In this document: piece after piece, positions 41,018 through 45,810 of the stretch
How positions within the stretch are numbered: the stretch's first letter is position 1
Layout of the letters: every line of letters starts with the position of its first letter
Position numbers and translations under genes: made by a program
Notes under the pieces: model-generated
The model's input: only the letters and a program-made list of their open reading frames with translations
Databases searched by the model: none
Told to the model about the DNA's origin: nothing
Assembly: GCA_036322835.1 (NCBI GenBank)
Contig: AP027304.1
Location: 2,604,001 to 2,668,000, forward strand
DNA: 64,000 bases
Direction: 5' to 3'
Source of the DNA: Tenuifilaceae bacterium CYCD
Lineage (GTDB): Bacteria > Bacteroidota > Bacteroidia > Bacteroidales > Tenuifilaceae

Positions 41018-41329
41018 ATGAATTTCAAAGAACTGTTTTTAATTGAACGTATTGACCAATTGATAAGATTAAGAACAACTGGAAATCCCTTAAACTTAGC
41101 GAACAAATTAAACATCTCTGAAAGGCACGTTTACAATATTATCAACAAGATGAAAGATGTTTACAAAGCACCCATAGAATTTGATAAAGATTGTAATTCG
41201 TACATATATAAGGAAACTGGACGAATAGTAGTTGGATTTCATAAAGAAACGATACCATTAAATAATTTGAAGAAAATTACAGGTGGGAAAAAATTATCAC
41301 TGAAATTTTATTTCAGTGAACTCGGTTAA
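41018..41329 (+). CDS. Small HTH DNA-binding protein of a RiPP locus
   Basis: A 103-aa protein. Residues about 8-50 form a helix-turn-helix of the HTH_11/DeoR-like type (ERIDQLIRLRTTG, then NLANKLNISERHVYNIINKMK with the recognition helix SERHVYNIINKM). Residues 50-75 (YKAPIEFDKDCNSYIYKETG) make the wing strands. Small proteins of this build precede GG-leader peptide genes in many Bacteroidota and are presumed local regulators. The last 22 codons contain the palindrome that is repeated before each precursor gene, so the gene end doubles as a regulatory site for precursor 1, which starts 45 nt later. Confidence 0.78.
   Translation: MNFKELFLIERIDQLIRLRTTGNPLNLANKLNISERHVYNIINKMKDVYKAPIEFDKDCNSYIYKETGRIVVGFHKETIPLNNLKKITGGKKLSLKFYFSELG
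41297..41319. promoter_or_regulatory. Palindrome before RiPP precursor 1
   Basis: TCACTGAAA and TTTCAGTGA with a 5-nt loop, inside the 3' end of the HTH gene and 55 nt before the precursor ATG. Identical copies are at 41770-41792 and 42236-42258 at the same distance. It is a candidate operator for the HTH protein, or an RNA hairpin. Confidence 0.6.
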
Positions 41330-41374
41330 TATTGTATTGACATTTATTTTACCATTAACCTAAAATTCATTACA

Positions 41375-41566
41375 ATGAAAAAATTAAAAGATTTGATGGA
41401 CGTTGAGAAAATTAATGTTCCAGAATTAATGAAGCTAAAAGGCGGTGTTGCTGAACTAGAAAAAGAGGAAGCGGGATGCTTCACCCATGCTTGCGCCAGC
41501 TCTATAGAATCTGTATGTACTAACATGGCATGCATAGTTCAAGCACGTGCAACTTTTGGGGTTTAA
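41375..41566 (+). CDS. RiPP precursor 1 (GG leader, divergent Cys core)
   Basis: A 63-aa ribosomal peptide precursor. Residues 1-24 are the leader shared with precursors 2 and 3, ending in the double-glycine motif MKLKGG. This fits the GG-Bacteroidales natural product precursor family. The core after GG is short and polar, with four cysteines in a CX4C-X7-CX4C arrangement (CFTHAC, then CTNMAC). The motif xHAC is shared with the other two precursors, but two cysteines are lacking and a longer hydrophobic tail follows. It belongs to the first of three tandem units and should be modified by the downstream radical SAM enzyme. The mature product is unknown. Confidence 0.85.
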   Translation: MKKLKDLMDVEKINVPELMKLKGGVAELEKEEAGCFTHACASSIESVCTNMACIVQARATFGV

Positions 41567-41670
41567 TCCATAGGGATATAAACCGAAAAATCCCTGATGG
41601 ATTGGATAAATCAGTGCTTCTTTAAACTTTAGTGGTATAGGTAATAACGAGGTTAAAAAGTAGAAAAAAC

Positions 41671-41705
41671 GCAGATACAGCAATTTGCATATCCGCATTT
41701 TTTTT
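41671..41705 (+). terminator. Terminator-like hairpin after precursor 1
   Basis: GCAGATA and TATCCGC pair with one mismatch around a 12-nt loop, followed by A and eight T. The corresponding site after precursor 2 is weaker. Confidence 0.45.
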
Positions 41706-41738
41706 CTTGTTAAGCATTAAACGTGAGAAGTGAAAAAA

Positions 41739-41804
41739 GATTTAAGGAAAATTACTGGTAAAAAAAACATCACTGAAATTTTATTTCAGTGAACACGGTT
41801 AATA
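41739..41804 (+). pseudogene. Remnant of the HTH gene 3' end (unit 2)
   Basis: GATTTAAGGAAAATTACTGG and the following palindrome match the last 22 codons of the HTH gene with a frame change (KDLRKITGKK versus NNLKKITGGKK). It is a by-product of the tandem duplication. Confidence 0.7.
41770..41792. promoter_or_regulatory. Palindrome before RiPP precursor 2
   Basis: Identical in sequence and spacing to the palindrome at 41297-41319. It has been conserved although the coding sequence around it has decayed. Confidence 0.6.
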
Positions 41805-41847
41805 TTGTATTGACATTTATTTTACCATTAACCTAAAATTCATTACA

Positions 41848-42045
41848 ATGAAAAAATTAAAAGATTTGACTGACGTTGAGAAAATCAATGTTCCAGAATT
41901 AATGAAACTAAAAGGCGGTGTTCTTGAACTAGAACAAGTTGATCGGGGATGCGACTCACATGCTTGCAACCACAATGCATGCACGGGATCTTCCTGTGTT
42001 GGCAACACATGCAAAAATGAAGCCTGCGTGTCTTCTATGGATTAA
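41848..42045 (+). CDS. RiPP precursor 2 (GG leader, six Cys at five-residue spacing)
   Basis: A 65-aa precursor. The leader (residues 1-24, ending MKLKGG) is nearly identical to the other two. The core carries six cysteines with exactly four residues between each: CDSHAC, NHNAC, TGSSC, VGNTC, KNEAC. The remaining positions are mostly small or polar residues (S, N, A, T, G, H). There is no signal peptide. Regular CX4 spacing suggests repeated modification of every unit by one enzyme, for instance thioether cross-links made by the radical SAM protein downstream. The nearest described relatives I know are CXXX-repeat peptides, which have a period of four rather than five. Confidence 0.88.
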   Translation: MKKLKDLTDVEKINVPELMKLKGGVLELEQVDRGCDSHACNHNACTGSSCVGNTCKNEACVSSMD

Positions 42046-42136
42046 TCCATAGGGATATAAACCGAAAAATCTGAAAAATCAGTGCTTCTTTAAACTTTAG
42101 TGGTATAAGTAATAACGAGGTTAAAAAGTAAAAAAA

Positions 42137-42171
42137 ACACAGGTATAGCAATTTGCATATCCGTATTTTTT
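42137..42171 (+). terminator. Degenerate terminator-like hairpin after precursor 2
   Basis: Counterpart of 41671-41705 with two mismatches in the stem and six T. If it has lost function, transcripts could run from precursor 2 into precursor 3. Confidence 0.3.
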
Positions 42172-42204
42172 CTTGTTAAGCATTAAGCGTGAGAAGTGAA
42201 AAAA

Positions 42205-42270
42205 GATTTAAGGAAAATTACTGGTGAAAAAAACATCACTGAAATTTTATTTCAGTGAACACGGTTAATA
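42205..42270 (+). pseudogene. Remnant of the HTH gene 3' end (unit 3)
   Basis: Almost identical to the remnant in unit 2, which shows that unit 3 was copied from unit 2 or the reverse. Confidence 0.7.
42236..42258. promoter_or_regulatory. Palindrome before RiPP precursor 3
   Basis: Third identical copy of the TCACTGAAA/TTTCAGTGA palindrome, again 55 nt before the precursor ATG. Confidence 0.6.
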
Positions 42271-42313
42271 TTGTATTGACATTTATTTTACCATTAACCT
42301 AAAATTCATTACA

Positions 42314-42511
42314 ATGAAAAAATTAAAAGATTTGACTGACGTTGAGAAAATCAATGTTCCAGAATTAATGAAGCTAAAAGGCGGTGTTGTTGAACTAGAA
42401 CAAGTGGATCGGGGATGCGACTCACATGCTTGCAACCACAATGCATGCACGGGATCTTCCTGTGTTAGCAACACATGCAATACTGAAGCTTGTGTGTCTG
42501 CTATGGATTAA
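42314..42511 (+). CDS. RiPP precursor 3 (GG leader, six Cys at five-residue spacing)
   Basis: A 65-aa precursor that differs from precursor 2 at only a few positions: VVELEQ for VLELEQ, VSNTC for VGNTC, and NTEACVSAMD for KNEACVSSMD. All six cysteines and their CX4 spacing are kept, while several spacer residues change. This suggests the cysteines are the selected feature. It is the last unit, 120 nt before the radical SAM gene, and no strong terminator intervenes, so it may be co-transcribed with the maturase. Confidence 0.88.
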   Translation: MKKLKDLTDVEKINVPELMKLKGGVVELEQVDRGCDSHACNHNACTGSSCVSNTCNTEACVSAMD

Positions 42512-42631
42512 TCCATAGGGATATAAACCCCCAAAAAACTTAAATTTAATATCAAGTTGGCTTGATTATAATTTCAGCCAACTTGATTTGTAGTTTAATA
42601 AATTATTTATTAATCAATTAAATTTCATTAA

Positions 42632-44098
42632 ATGGATTCATTTATTTTTAATCATGATTATATACTAAGGCATGATGAAAAAAGGACCTTTCTCGTTCAA
42701 AAAAATCATAATAACGATAGTTCTCGTAGTTGGATATCAGTTATTCATCCAATTCAGGCAATGATTCTTTCCTTCTTTTCGGAATCAAAACAATACGATA
42801 AGGTAATAGAAGAAATATCATTCTTTTTGGAAATTAGTAAAGAAGACACTATTAGAATGATAAAGCCATTTATTGAAAATAGCGAAACATTTTATACAAA
42901 GCATGACAATCAGGAATTTAAATTCCCTAAAAATGTTTTAATTAAAACAAGCTCCAATAAGTCGCCAATAAGGAGATATCTTGTAGAGCAATTTACTTTT
43001 AAAGAACTGGACTTTGTTTCAAAACGATTCTACTCGGGGCCTTTAAATATAACACTGATGCCCACTAATATATGTTCAACGAACTGCATGTATTGCTATG
43101 CCGACAAATCATACAAAATAAAAAACTACCTAAGCCTTGAGCGCATAAAAGAGATACTAGATGAAGCAAACGATCTAAATGTAATGTCTTTTGAAATTGT
43201 TGGTGGAGAGGTATTTAAGCATCCTGAATGGGAAAAAATATTGCAATATTATGTTGATAAGGGATTTGATCCTAGGCGAATTTCGACAAAAGTTCCATTA
43301 AGTAAAGACGATATTATAAAACTGAAAAAGATTGGAATCAATAAAATTCAAATTTCATTAGATACATTGATAGAAAAAAATTTATCCTATATTTTAAAAA
43401 CCAATAAAAAGTATTATGATCAAATACTTGAATCTATAAAATTGTTAGATGAAGAAAACATTGATATAAAAATTCAGACGATTCTAACTAAGTACAATTG
43501 TACAAAAGAAGATATGCTCTCCATATTTAACTATATTAAAACTTTCAAAAATGTTAATGGTTGGGCAATAAGACCTGCTTTCACATCTATTTACAATGGA
43601 AATGATTTTGTTCCTTCGCTATCTCAAATTAATGAAGTGTTCAACAGTGTTGAACCATTAAAATCGGAGATAAAAAACATAGATTATGATCGTACTTTTT
43701 TGGATAGAGGTTACATGTCCATAGAAGGAGGCAGTGAGAATTTTAAAGGTGCAGAATGCTCTTCAAATAGATCCCACATCTTTATTCTACCTGATGGAAA
43801 AGTTACAATTTGCGAACAATTATATTGGAAACCAAACTTTATAATAGGAGATATTTCGACACACACAATAAAAGAGATATGGAACTCGGAACGATCGCTT
43901 TTCCTTTACAACTTGAAAAAATCAGATTTATCAGATCATAATCCTTGTAAAACTTGCGAAATATTTGACAGTTGTTACAAGAATATGAATAGATGCTGGG
44001 CCGAAGTTGTTAAAGCATATGGCGATGAGAACTGGGATTACCCTGACCCTCGTTGCAAAATGGCTCCTAAAATGAAAACAAACCTTATATACCAATAA
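42632..44098 (+). CDS. Radical SAM/SPASM RiPP maturase
   Basis: A 488-aa cytoplasmic enzyme. Residues 1-110 resemble a PqqD-like RiPP recognition element (a beta start DYILRHDEKRTFLVQ, then helices), expected to bind the shared leader. The radical SAM core starts with C148-X3-C152-X2-C155 (CSTNCMYC), which binds the [4Fe-4S] cluster that cleaves SAM; FEIVGGEVFKHPEW follows. The SPASM part has Cys376, the Cys in VTICEQ, and a C-terminal cluster CKTCEIFDSCYKNMNRC for auxiliary clusters. It stands right after the three precursors. Thioether (sactipeptide/ranthipeptide) or C-C bond formation on the CX4 cores is the likeliest reaction; the exact bond is not predictable. Confidence 0.9.
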   Translation: MDSFIFNHDYILRHDEKRTFLVQKNHNNDSSRSWISVIHPIQAMILSFFSESKQYDKVIEEISFFLEISKEDTIRMIKPFIENSETFYTKHDNQEFKFPKNVLIKTSSNKSPIRRYLVEQFTFKELDFVSKRFYSGPLNITLMPTNICSTNCMYCYADKSYKIKNYLSLERIKEILDEANDLNVMSFEIVGGEVFKHPEWEKILQYYVDKGFDPRRISTKVPLSKDDIIKLKKIGINKIQISLDTLIEKNLSYILKTNKKYYDQILESIKLLDEENIDIKIQTILTKYNCTKEDMLSIFNYIKTFKNVNGWAIRPAFTSIYNGNDFVPSLSQINEVFNSVEPLKSEIKNIDYDRTFLDRGYMSIEGGSENFKGAECSSNRSHIFILPDGKVTICEQLYWKPNFIIGDISTHTIKEIWNSERSLFLYNLKKSDLSDHNPCKTCEIFDSCYKNMNRCWAEVVKAYGDENWDYPDPRCKMAPKMKTNLIYQ

Positions 44099-44223
44099 GT
44101 TCTTGATATACTTCGTTTGGTTATGTATTAGTTATAAATTGCAAATAAATTTTATGGGTATTATCTTTATTTGATTTTCCTTTTTATAAATTAATCTATT
44201 AATTGGTTGCTTGTATTAATTAC

Positions 44224-45810
44224 ATGAAATATTTTTTTTTAATATTACTCATCATTGGTAATGTTTTTTTGCTACAAGCGCAAAACACCAATTCTGATTT
44301 TAAAACTACTGTAATTAATAAGAAAATTATCGAATATCTCGATAGATTCGATTTAAGTTCTGTTTTATCGACATTAGTAACGCTTAAATATACAGAGGCA
44401 AACGGTCGGGATGGTTTATACCGATCGATTTGCCTTAAGAGAAATATTAGTTATTGGCCAGAATCGAATTCAATCAACAGCGCAGTTCCTGAAAAAAAAA
44501 GAATGGAGATTCTGAATCAAGAGATCAAAGAGATAATTACTTACAAAGATTCGGTTGCCTGTTCAATTCTAAGAAAAGATTCTGCTTATCGTATCCGTTA
44601 CTACGAACTAGATAATGGTGATTGGTTGGTGGGAGCAGAGGATGTGCGGTACAGTATGGAGGATGCTCGTAAGCTATTCCATTCCCTGGCCGAAGGATTA
44701 TTACAAGCACAGAAACGCAGTAAATTAGTACTCAAGATGCCAACTGATACGCTTTCCTTTTTGGATTATATTGATAAAAACAAAAAGGATCCTACAGATT
44801 TTATTCTAGATGCATTGAAAAGGTATAAAATTGTAGTCTATGGTGAAATTCACAATAGGCCTCCCTCGTGGGAACTATGTCGGGATGTAATCAGAAGTAA
44901 ATCCTTTTCTGAAAATGCAGGGACAATATTTTTGGAGTTATCGGCTCACAAACAACAACAAATAGATCTTTTTTTGGAGTCCAAAACACTGGATGTTAGC
45001 CTGATTCAGGATGTTTTTCATGAAACATTCGACGACCAATTTTGGGCTGGCATGTATGACTTTTTGATTGATGTGTGGAATATTAATCAGGATTTAAATA
45101 GCAATAGCAAAATTAGAGTTATTGCTGTTGATATACCTAGGCCATATAGCTTCTTAAGAACTAGCGACGATTTTCTAAATCATTTCCAGAAATTTGAAAG
45201 TCGAGATTCCTTTATGGCTGAAACTATTGAGAATTACCTAAATAAATCAACCGATAAACGAAATTCACTTTTCATAGTAGGCGCTATGCATGTTTGTAAA
45301 TCATTTCAATCAGCAGGAAGTTTATTGACCAATAAATTTTCAAACGATAGTGTTTATAGCATTTTTACGCATTGCCCAATAATTTCAAATGATGGTAATA
45401 TACCAGGACTTATAAGGGGTGGCATATTTGACTATGCTTTCTATAAATACGGCAACACACCAATTGCTTTTTCTCTCAAAAATAGTCCTTTTGGAAAAGA
45501 GCCATTTGATGCTTTCACTGAAATTAGCTACTCGAATAAAACAGGATGCTTTTCAGATAACTTTGATGCTTATATTTTCTTAGGATCATTGTCCAACGAA
45601 ATAACTGATCGAATTTTATTCGAAGTTTATACCCCGGATTTTATTAGTGAATTAAAGCGTCGTTGCGATCTTCAGAATCTTTCATTTAAAGAATATTATG
45701 GCATTTCTGAGCCAAATCGAGCATCCTTAATCTCGATACTTATAAAAGAAAAAGAACCCTATCGATGGCGAAAATCAATCATACATTTTCTGAAAAATAA
45801 TTCTTACTAA
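44224..45810 (+). CDS. Secreted EreA/ChaN/TIKI-superfamily protein
   Basis: A 528-aa exported protein; I start at the ATG at 44224 because an upstream in-frame TTG adds only seven residues before a clear signal peptide (MKYFFLILLIIGNVFLLQAQ). The C-terminal half has the superfamily signatures G207-E-I-H-N, LELSAHKQQQID, RDSFMAETIE (about 327-336) and G353-A-M-H-V. These are the metal or catalytic positions in erythromycin-esterase-like, ChaN-like and TIKI/TraB proteins. The N-terminal 190 residues are specific to this protein. It follows the RiPP maturase by 126 nt on the same strand. A hydrolase acting on a secreted peptide or on iron/haem would both fit. Confidence 0.75.
   Translation: MKYFFLILLIIGNVFLLQAQNTNSDFKTTVINKKIIEYLDRFDLSSVLSTLVTLKYTEANGRDGLYRSICLKRNISYWPESNSINSAVPEKKRMEILNQEIKEIITYKDSVACSILRKDSAYRIRYYELDNGDWLVGAEDVRYSMEDARKLFHSLAEGLLQAQKRSKLVLKMPTDTLSFLDYIDKNKKDPTDFILDALKRYKIVVYGEIHNRPPSWELCRDVIRSKSFSENAGTIFLELSAHKQQQIDLFLESKTLDVSLIQDVFHETFDDQFWAGMYDFLIDVWNINQDLNSNSKIRVIAVDIPRPYSFLRTSDDFLNHFQKFESRDSFMAETIENYLNKSTDKRNSLFIVGAMHVCKSFQSAGSLLTNKFSNDSVYSIFTHCPIISNDGNIPGLIRGGIFDYAFYKYGNTPIAFSLKNSPFGKEPFDAFTEISYSNKTGCFSDNFDAYIFLGSLSNEITDRILFEVYTPDFISELKRRCDLQNLSFKEYYGISEPNRASLISILIKEKEPYRWRKSIIHFLKNNSY

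Follow-up and report, generated by a model that had tools for sequence, protein, structure and literature searches.

The locus described here raises a simple question: why do the cysteines of two small precursor peptides fall at every fifth residue, and what would the neighboring enzyme do with them? We analyzed a window of 64,000 nucleotides from Tenuifilaceae bacterium CYCD (GenBank assembly GCA_036322835.1, contig AP027304.1, positions 2,604,001 to 2,668,000), whose 3.92-Mb genome is a single contig. At positions 41018-44098 of the + strand, the window carries a gene for a helix-turn-helix (HTH) protein, three genes for precursors with a Gly-Gly (GG) leader, and an intact gene for a radical S-adenosylmethionine (SAM)/SPASM enzyme. 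All five lie where the original prediction had placed them. Their content and domains give good support to its view that this is a locus for a ribosomally synthesized and post-translationally modified peptide (RiPP), in which a SPASM enzyme, hereafter the maturase, accompanies cysteine-rich precursors. Across a clade of related enzymes, the residues that follow each cysteine keep a constant register, suggesting that each cysteine heads a forward unit. We favor a tentative explanation, to which we give a probability of about 0.4: in this RiPP locus each cysteine would be joined to the residue four places on (+4), giving one five-residue ring per cysteine, and the product would be cleaved after the GG and exported.

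Two of the three precursors have cysteines at an exact period of five

All three precursors are encoded on the + strand, and each has a leader that ends in LKGG. Precursor 1 (41375-41566, 63 amino acids) has the core CX4C-X7-CX4C, with cysteine gaps of 5, 8 and 5. Precursors 2 (41848-42045) and 3 (42314-42511), each 65 amino acids long, contain six cysteines with gaps of 5,5,5,5,5. When we permuted the residues after the GG, five consecutive gaps of five occurred in none of 20,000 shuffles for precursor 2, and the same was true for precursor 3, confirming the predicted period. The number of cysteines is even in all three peptides.

It had also been pointed out that no cysteine and no spacing varies between precursors 2 and 3. 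This is true, but it carries little weight because the two are recent copies, 92% identical, that differ by five replaced and four silent codons, with one of the silent changes in a cysteine codon. The precursor genes lie in three tandem copies of a stretch of about 470 bp (41227-42465, + strand, spacing 473 and 466 bp), each containing a palindrome, a promoter-like site and a precursor. Copy 1 starts inside the HTH gene and takes in part of its 3' end, and copies 2 and 3 carry sequence that resembles this part.

Further support for the period came from a second genome of the same family (G697, locus L039), in which precursors alternate with two enzymes that are 42 and 43% identical to the window maturase. 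The cores in this genome, for example DCSGGLCWGGDCTGGACTGGACTGGSC, have a period of five and are otherwise unlike the window core. Their gaps run 5,5,5,5,5,2 and 5,5,5,5,2,3,2,3, and two of the cores resemble each other.

The maturase has the cluster-binding cysteines of a radical SAM/SPASM enzyme

The maturase (42632-44098, + strand, 488 amino acids) matched the Pfam families Radical_SAM (64 bits) and SPASM (43.9 bits, cut-off 21.5), in both cases above cut-off. In an alignment of 16 enzymes, the three cysteines of its CX3CX2C motif (C148, C152, C155) and its seven SPASM cysteines (C376, C394, C439, C442, C448, C455, C475) were invariant in 16/16. The alignment omits plasmid matches as well as L009, which has an internal stop, and L011, which is a fragment; the latter two are counted among the 13 enzyme places.

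The maturase scored well below the cut-offs of named NCBIfam models: 67.7 against 381 bits for PqqE, 65.6 against 850 for AlbA, and 36.5 against 340 for PapB. The best 25 of its 61 NCBIfam matches ran from 67.7 down to 35.8 bits (E = 3.4e-9), and the best 25 of the 49 families that matched the 16-row alignment were general, with none specific to the group. Among solved structures, the only relatives found by sequence were PqqE (E = 2e-5) and SkfB (E = 7e-5).

The original prediction described the N-terminus of the maturase as resembling a RiPP recognition element (RRE), and here the data are no more than suggestive. There is a weak match to WgkC, a PqqD-related family (15 bits, cut-off 110; E = 0.018), and a low-confidence AlphaFold model built from two sequences (mean predicted local distance difference test score, pLDDT, of 46) places three strands before three helices. 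At E up to 0.1, the Pfam matches of the 16 enzymes included no PqqD family. A leader-binding, RRE-like domain may occupy the N-terminal 120 residues.

The residues after each cysteine keep a constant register

A phylogeny of the 16 enzymes splits, at a branch supported at 100/99, into 10 enzymes, the window maturase included (clade A), and the other six (clade B). Gaps between cysteines were five in 28/67 cases and seven in 19/67 in clade A, with many gaps of 7 to 12. The window supplied 12 of the 28 gaps of five, and the three G697 cores supplied 11. In clade B, 27/43 gaps were four. Thirteen of these 27 come from three L050 cores, which we put in clade B since their broken enzyme, absent from the tree, resembles that of L047. 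Because cores with gaps of seven occur beside sister enzymes and cores with gaps of four beside clade B enzymes, we conclude that the enzyme does not dictate a period of five. One clade A precursor (G129, L043 1594-1899) has gaps of 7,7,7,7,7,8,11,7 and comes near to a cysteine at every seventh residue. The table of 27 peptides omits the G105b precursor, which enters the 15-core count below, a small cysteine peptide at L050 535-711, and two GG peptides with one or no cysteine (L039 15181-15336 and L048 8074-8268).

We counted the residues after each cysteine in 48 distinct cysteine-to-cysteine segments from 11 clade A cores. Glycine was found at +2 in 21/47 and at +3 in 20/45, and at +4 in 0/45, where 10.7 were expected. 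Alanine or a hydrophobic residue was found at +4 in 33/45 and at +2 in 1/47. When only segments of at least six residues were considered, in which +4 does not lie beside the next cysteine, 21/27 had alanine or a hydrophobic residue at +4 and none had glycine. Counting back from the next cysteine in 30 long segments gave alanine or a hydrophobic residue in 8 to 14/30, compared with 23/30 at +4. The 11-core count omits P0004 and G689, which are near copies, as well as G105b and the Phocaeicola core. With all 15 cores, two misfits included, +4 was alanine or hydrophobic in 41/61 distinct five-mers and glycine in 2/61; the six five-mers with an inner cysteine were excluded. Within the window alone, 10/13 distinct units had alanine or a hydrophobic residue at +4 (p = 0.002), and the +4 residues of precursor 2 are A, A, S, T, A and M. 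In clade B, glycine was found at +3 in 18/40 distinct four-mers (raw count), and the matching unit would be C-x-x-G.

Taken together, these counts suggest a forward unit that starts at each cysteine, C-x-small-small-(Ala/hydrophobic), in a register that stays constant whatever the spacing of the cysteines. We read a period of five as this unit without a linker, and a period of seven as the unit plus a two-residue linker. The original claim that the cysteines have no fixed partner residue is literally true; what seems likely is a fixed partner position, +4, occupied mostly by alanine or hydrophobic residues.

The maturase has a patchy distribution

At E = 1e-30 the maturase found matches in 11/295 genomes sampled from its order, and at 1e-20 in 3/27 genomes of its family, its own genome being included in both counts. 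Neither of the two other genomes of the genus had a match at 1e-20. Of the 395 genomes sampled from the phylum, with at most four candidates scored per genome, three had a match at 1e-40, all in the same order. Such a scattered distribution suggests that the maturase gene has been transferred or lost. The nearest named relative is in a Prevotellaceae metagenome-assembled genome and is 54% identical.

A GG-leader peptide with at least two cysteines adjoins 15/16 of the aligned enzymes, and leaders are similar among the nearer relatives. The exception is L034, the closest relative, where no precursor was seen and the contig starts 184 bases 5' of the enzyme gene. Searching that genome with a profile built on 13 precursors, without a positive control, found nothing. 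We found no relative of the maturase in viral contigs and one distant match in phages. Two plasmid records are nearer to the family, and in both the enzyme is split or truncated. A Phocaeicola massiliensis plasmid (OY725993; L058 3750-4363) encodes a GG-leader peptide followed by only the SPASM half (130 amino acids) of a related enzyme; further on lies what looks by eye like the start of a C39-like transporter, and the record is unannotated. On a Paenibacillus peoriae plasmid (L057 4541-6427), two small cysteine-rich peptides without a GG leader precede an enzyme distantly related to the maturase, which is split into two annotated genes.

A proposed ring for each cysteine, and the alternatives

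How could a forward unit give rise to a period? In the explanation we favor, the maturase would bind the leader, possibly by means of its N-terminal domain, and radical chemistry would link each cysteine sulfur to the residue four places on. A thioether from cysteine to +4 would be the simplest reading of the register by analogy with known enzymes. One five-residue ring would form per cysteine, and the rings would lie side by side without nesting. In the window core there would be no linkers between the rings, so that a cysteine would fall at every fifth residue. Rings would run from i to i+4 in the products of clade A and from i to i+3 in those of clade B. Few side chains at +4 are acidic, which points weakly to a bond at the alpha-carbon. 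Cleavage after the GG would then remove the leader, and the product would be exported; the C39 transporter of a second RiPP locus is a possible route (see below). We guess that the product could act on neighboring bacteria. We consider the broader generalization unlikely as it stands, namely that one maturase clade makes a modular peptide of thioether rings onto an unactivated +4 acceptor, that evolution shapes the product through linkers of zero or two residues so that one chemistry yields Cys-every-fifth and Cys-every-seventh peptides, and that the sister clade works likewise on four-residue CxxG units.

Several points weigh against the proposed rings. Units in the window have glycine at +2 in 2/13 and at +3 in 0/13, these positions being mostly serine, histidine, asparagine or threonine, and the absence of glycine at +4 is uninformative within the window (p = 0.57). 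Two cores fit poorly, that of G105b (CGLGCFLGGIY) and that found beside the truncated Phocaeicola enzyme. The register was found on the same cores used to test it, searches for fresh cores gave no new intact locus, and the shuffles take no account of the common descent of the cores. Glycine is also high at -2 and -3, as period-five cores must give. PapB accepts Cys-X0-6-Asp in vitro (PMC9413430), so spacing need not be fixed by enzymes of this kind, and an alanine or leucine at +4 has no acidic side chain like that in freyrasin. Folding or enzyme binding may be all that the run of cysteines serves. Finally, the C39 transporter, at 1.14 Mb from the window locus, may serve only its own locus.

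We weighed four other explanations. In one, which we judge unlikely, the cysteines would be linked or modified without the +4 residue, for example through CX4C disulfides after export, single-residue changes or epimerization. The even cysteine numbers in the window would suit pairing, and the core of precursor 1, like that of G216, consists of two CX4C pairs; on the other side, 5/14 clade A cores have an odd number of cysteines, many gaps are 7 to 12 residues, and the register from +2 to +4 would be left unexplained. A nested or long-range sactionine hairpin as in subtilosin or thurincin would place donors far from acceptors. Here the cysteines run evenly through the core with no cysteine-free half to provide acceptors, and the register is local to each cysteine. 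We therefore find a hairpin quite improbable, although AlbA is the second-best NCBIfam match, at a score far below its cut-off, and SkfB is one of the two matches among solved structures. The peptide could also be an unmodified metal-binding or structural one and the enzyme could act on another substrate. This is very improbable given that the enzyme adjoins a GG-leader cysteine peptide in 15/16 cases and that precursors alternate with two enzymes in G697.

The fourth explanation is that the locus is a member or close analogue of a system already named. The period of five had been presented as undescribed, and this did not hold: NCBIfam contains NF038108, "Cys-every-fifth RiPP peptide CefA", and NF038107, "Cys-every-fifth radical SAM/SPASM peptide maturase CefB". 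The window locus resembles these in having a cysteine at every fifth residue, in precursors 2 and 3 though not in precursor 1, and a radical SAM/SPASM maturase. Precursors 2 and 3 matched CefA over the cysteine region only, at 19.9 and 20.5 bits (lowest E = 0.0003), short of the cut-off of 30; precursor 1 had no match. At E up to 1, only 2/13 precursors matched CefA, which means that the G697 cores do not. CefB (cut-off 600) was not among the best 25 of the 61 NCBIfam matches of the maturase, and the CefB match of this genome is another protein, P0008, at 151.5 bits, with four of five candidates in the genome scored. None of the 395 genomes sampled from the phylum passed the CefB cut-off. The match through the cysteine region, and the fact that CefB was judged from 25 of 61 matches and four of five candidates, speak for shared chemistry with CefA/CefB, and on balance we regard it as improbable.

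Regulation, export and neighboring genes

The HTH protein (41018-41329, + strand, 103 amino acids) is a probable regulator, although it falls below Pfam cut-offs itself. Over 67 amino acids it is 30% identical to an HTH_11 protein of the second RiPP locus. The palindrome TCACTGAAATTTTATTTCAGTGA, of 23 bases with 10-base arms, is found at 41297-41319, within the 3' end of the HTH gene, at 41770-41792 and at 42236-42258, and is followed by the promoter-like sequence TTGACA-18-TAAAAT. Allowing up to three mismatches, these are the only three sites in the window, and none is expected by shuffling. The HTH protein and the palindrome 5' of each precursor probably govern transcription of the three precursors. 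We regard an operator or promoter function as putative, because promoter-like sites are not enriched in the window (24 compared with 20.8 in shuffles) and because the palindrome also matches a terminator pattern on the - strand.

Removal of a GG leader together with C39 export has been described for Bacteroidales (PMC10352776). The genome contains both a GG motif and a C39 ATP-binding cassette (ABC) transporter, but the transporter is not adjacent: the only C39 match in the genome lies at 3788640-3789014, 1.14 Mb from the RiPP locus of the window. Among relatives, a Peptidase_C39 ABC transporter was confirmed in 7/12 wide stretches (L039-L049, L051). The C39 match belongs to the second RiPP locus (L054, G000:C1:3780000-3798000), which encodes an HTH protein, three GG precursors with CxC...CxCxC cores, a radical SAM enzyme, an S41-like protein and an HlyD-like protein. 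The radical SAM enzyme of this locus is nearest to the TIGR04463, Clo7bot and CefB models and is far below their cut-offs.

Upstream of the window locus, P0006 (39731-40555, + strand, 274 amino acids) has a start that resembles a signal peptide by eye and a DUF3108-like match below cut-off. It is a neighbor of the RiPP locus and a possible member of it. Its sole paralogue found in the genome is 52% identical and lies directly before the second RiPP locus (L054 13323-14138), so that both genomic copies of this family of about 270 amino acids directly precede a RiPP locus with an HTH gene and three precursors. As a component of RiPP loci in general we rejected P0006, since six other genomes show no RiPP genes within roughly 1.5 kb of its homologues. 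The gene 3' of the maturase (44203-45810) encodes a ChaN/Tiki-type domain (29.4 bits, Pfam cut-off 27.7).

Comparison with known systems

The nearest parallel for the proposed bond is freyrasin, in which PapB links cysteine to an acidic residue at +4 in six motifs (PMC9413430). Both systems have several cysteines, each with a likely +4 acceptor, and the rings proposed here would be in line like those of freyrasin. The acceptor is Asp or Glu in freyrasin, whereas in precursors 2 and 3 it would be Ala, Ser, Thr or Met; the Cys-X3-Asp/Glu motifs of that type are absent, and the PapB score falls far short of its cut-off. Since freyrasin also links cysteine to +4, the original prediction drew the contrast with its CX3D motif too sharply. 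In streptosactin, the SPASM enzyme GggB forms two unnested rings, with Ser or Gly at +3 as the partner of cysteine (PMC8172795). These small thioether rings, which are not nested, resemble those proposed here, but the +3 acceptors are nearer to the CxxG cores of the sister clade.

By its name, the CXXX-repeat target family TIGR04115 shares a short-period cysteine core and a radical SAM maturase; the best 25 NCBIfam matches of the window maturase (P0005) did not include it. The GG-leader radical SAM RiPPs of Bacteroidales (PMC10352776; TIGR04149, GG_sam_targ_CFB) share the GG leader, the radical SAM/SPASM enzyme and the C39 transporter logic. Leader scores in the window are 13.1 and 10.9 bits, below the cut-off of 25, and a periodic cysteine core is not mentioned in the consulted portion of that account.

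The CefA model matched 22 of the 395 phylum genomes, 10 of them over the cut-off. We rejected these matches as CefA peptides, not each having been checked; 20 loci (L014-L033) lacked a GG-leader period-five peptide by our filter. Stretches of AEVC type in six of them (L015, L018, L022, L023, L028, L030) resemble pentapeptide repeats read in the wrong frame. The model, partly over its cut-off on such frames, may call false members. The term "Cys-every-fifth" occurred in no paper found, and "CefB" was absent among the matches listed. Literature on radical SAM peptides, with most subscription journals outside its scope, gave no such family among the matches listed.

With precursors below the CefA cut-off and an enzyme not seen to be CefB-like, the combination of a period-five core, a GG leader and an enzyme apparently of another lineage looks different from Cef. 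An odd spacing becomes a rule that predicts a bond. If the rule is true, one enzyme clade makes bead-like ring peptides with variable linkers and Ala, Leu, Ile or Met as acceptors, unlike the Asp/Glu reported for PapB, which would be useful in peptide engineering. It would also account for cysteine periods of four, five and seven beside related enzymes. The CefA/CefB pattern, named though no publication was found, gains a second case for comparison.

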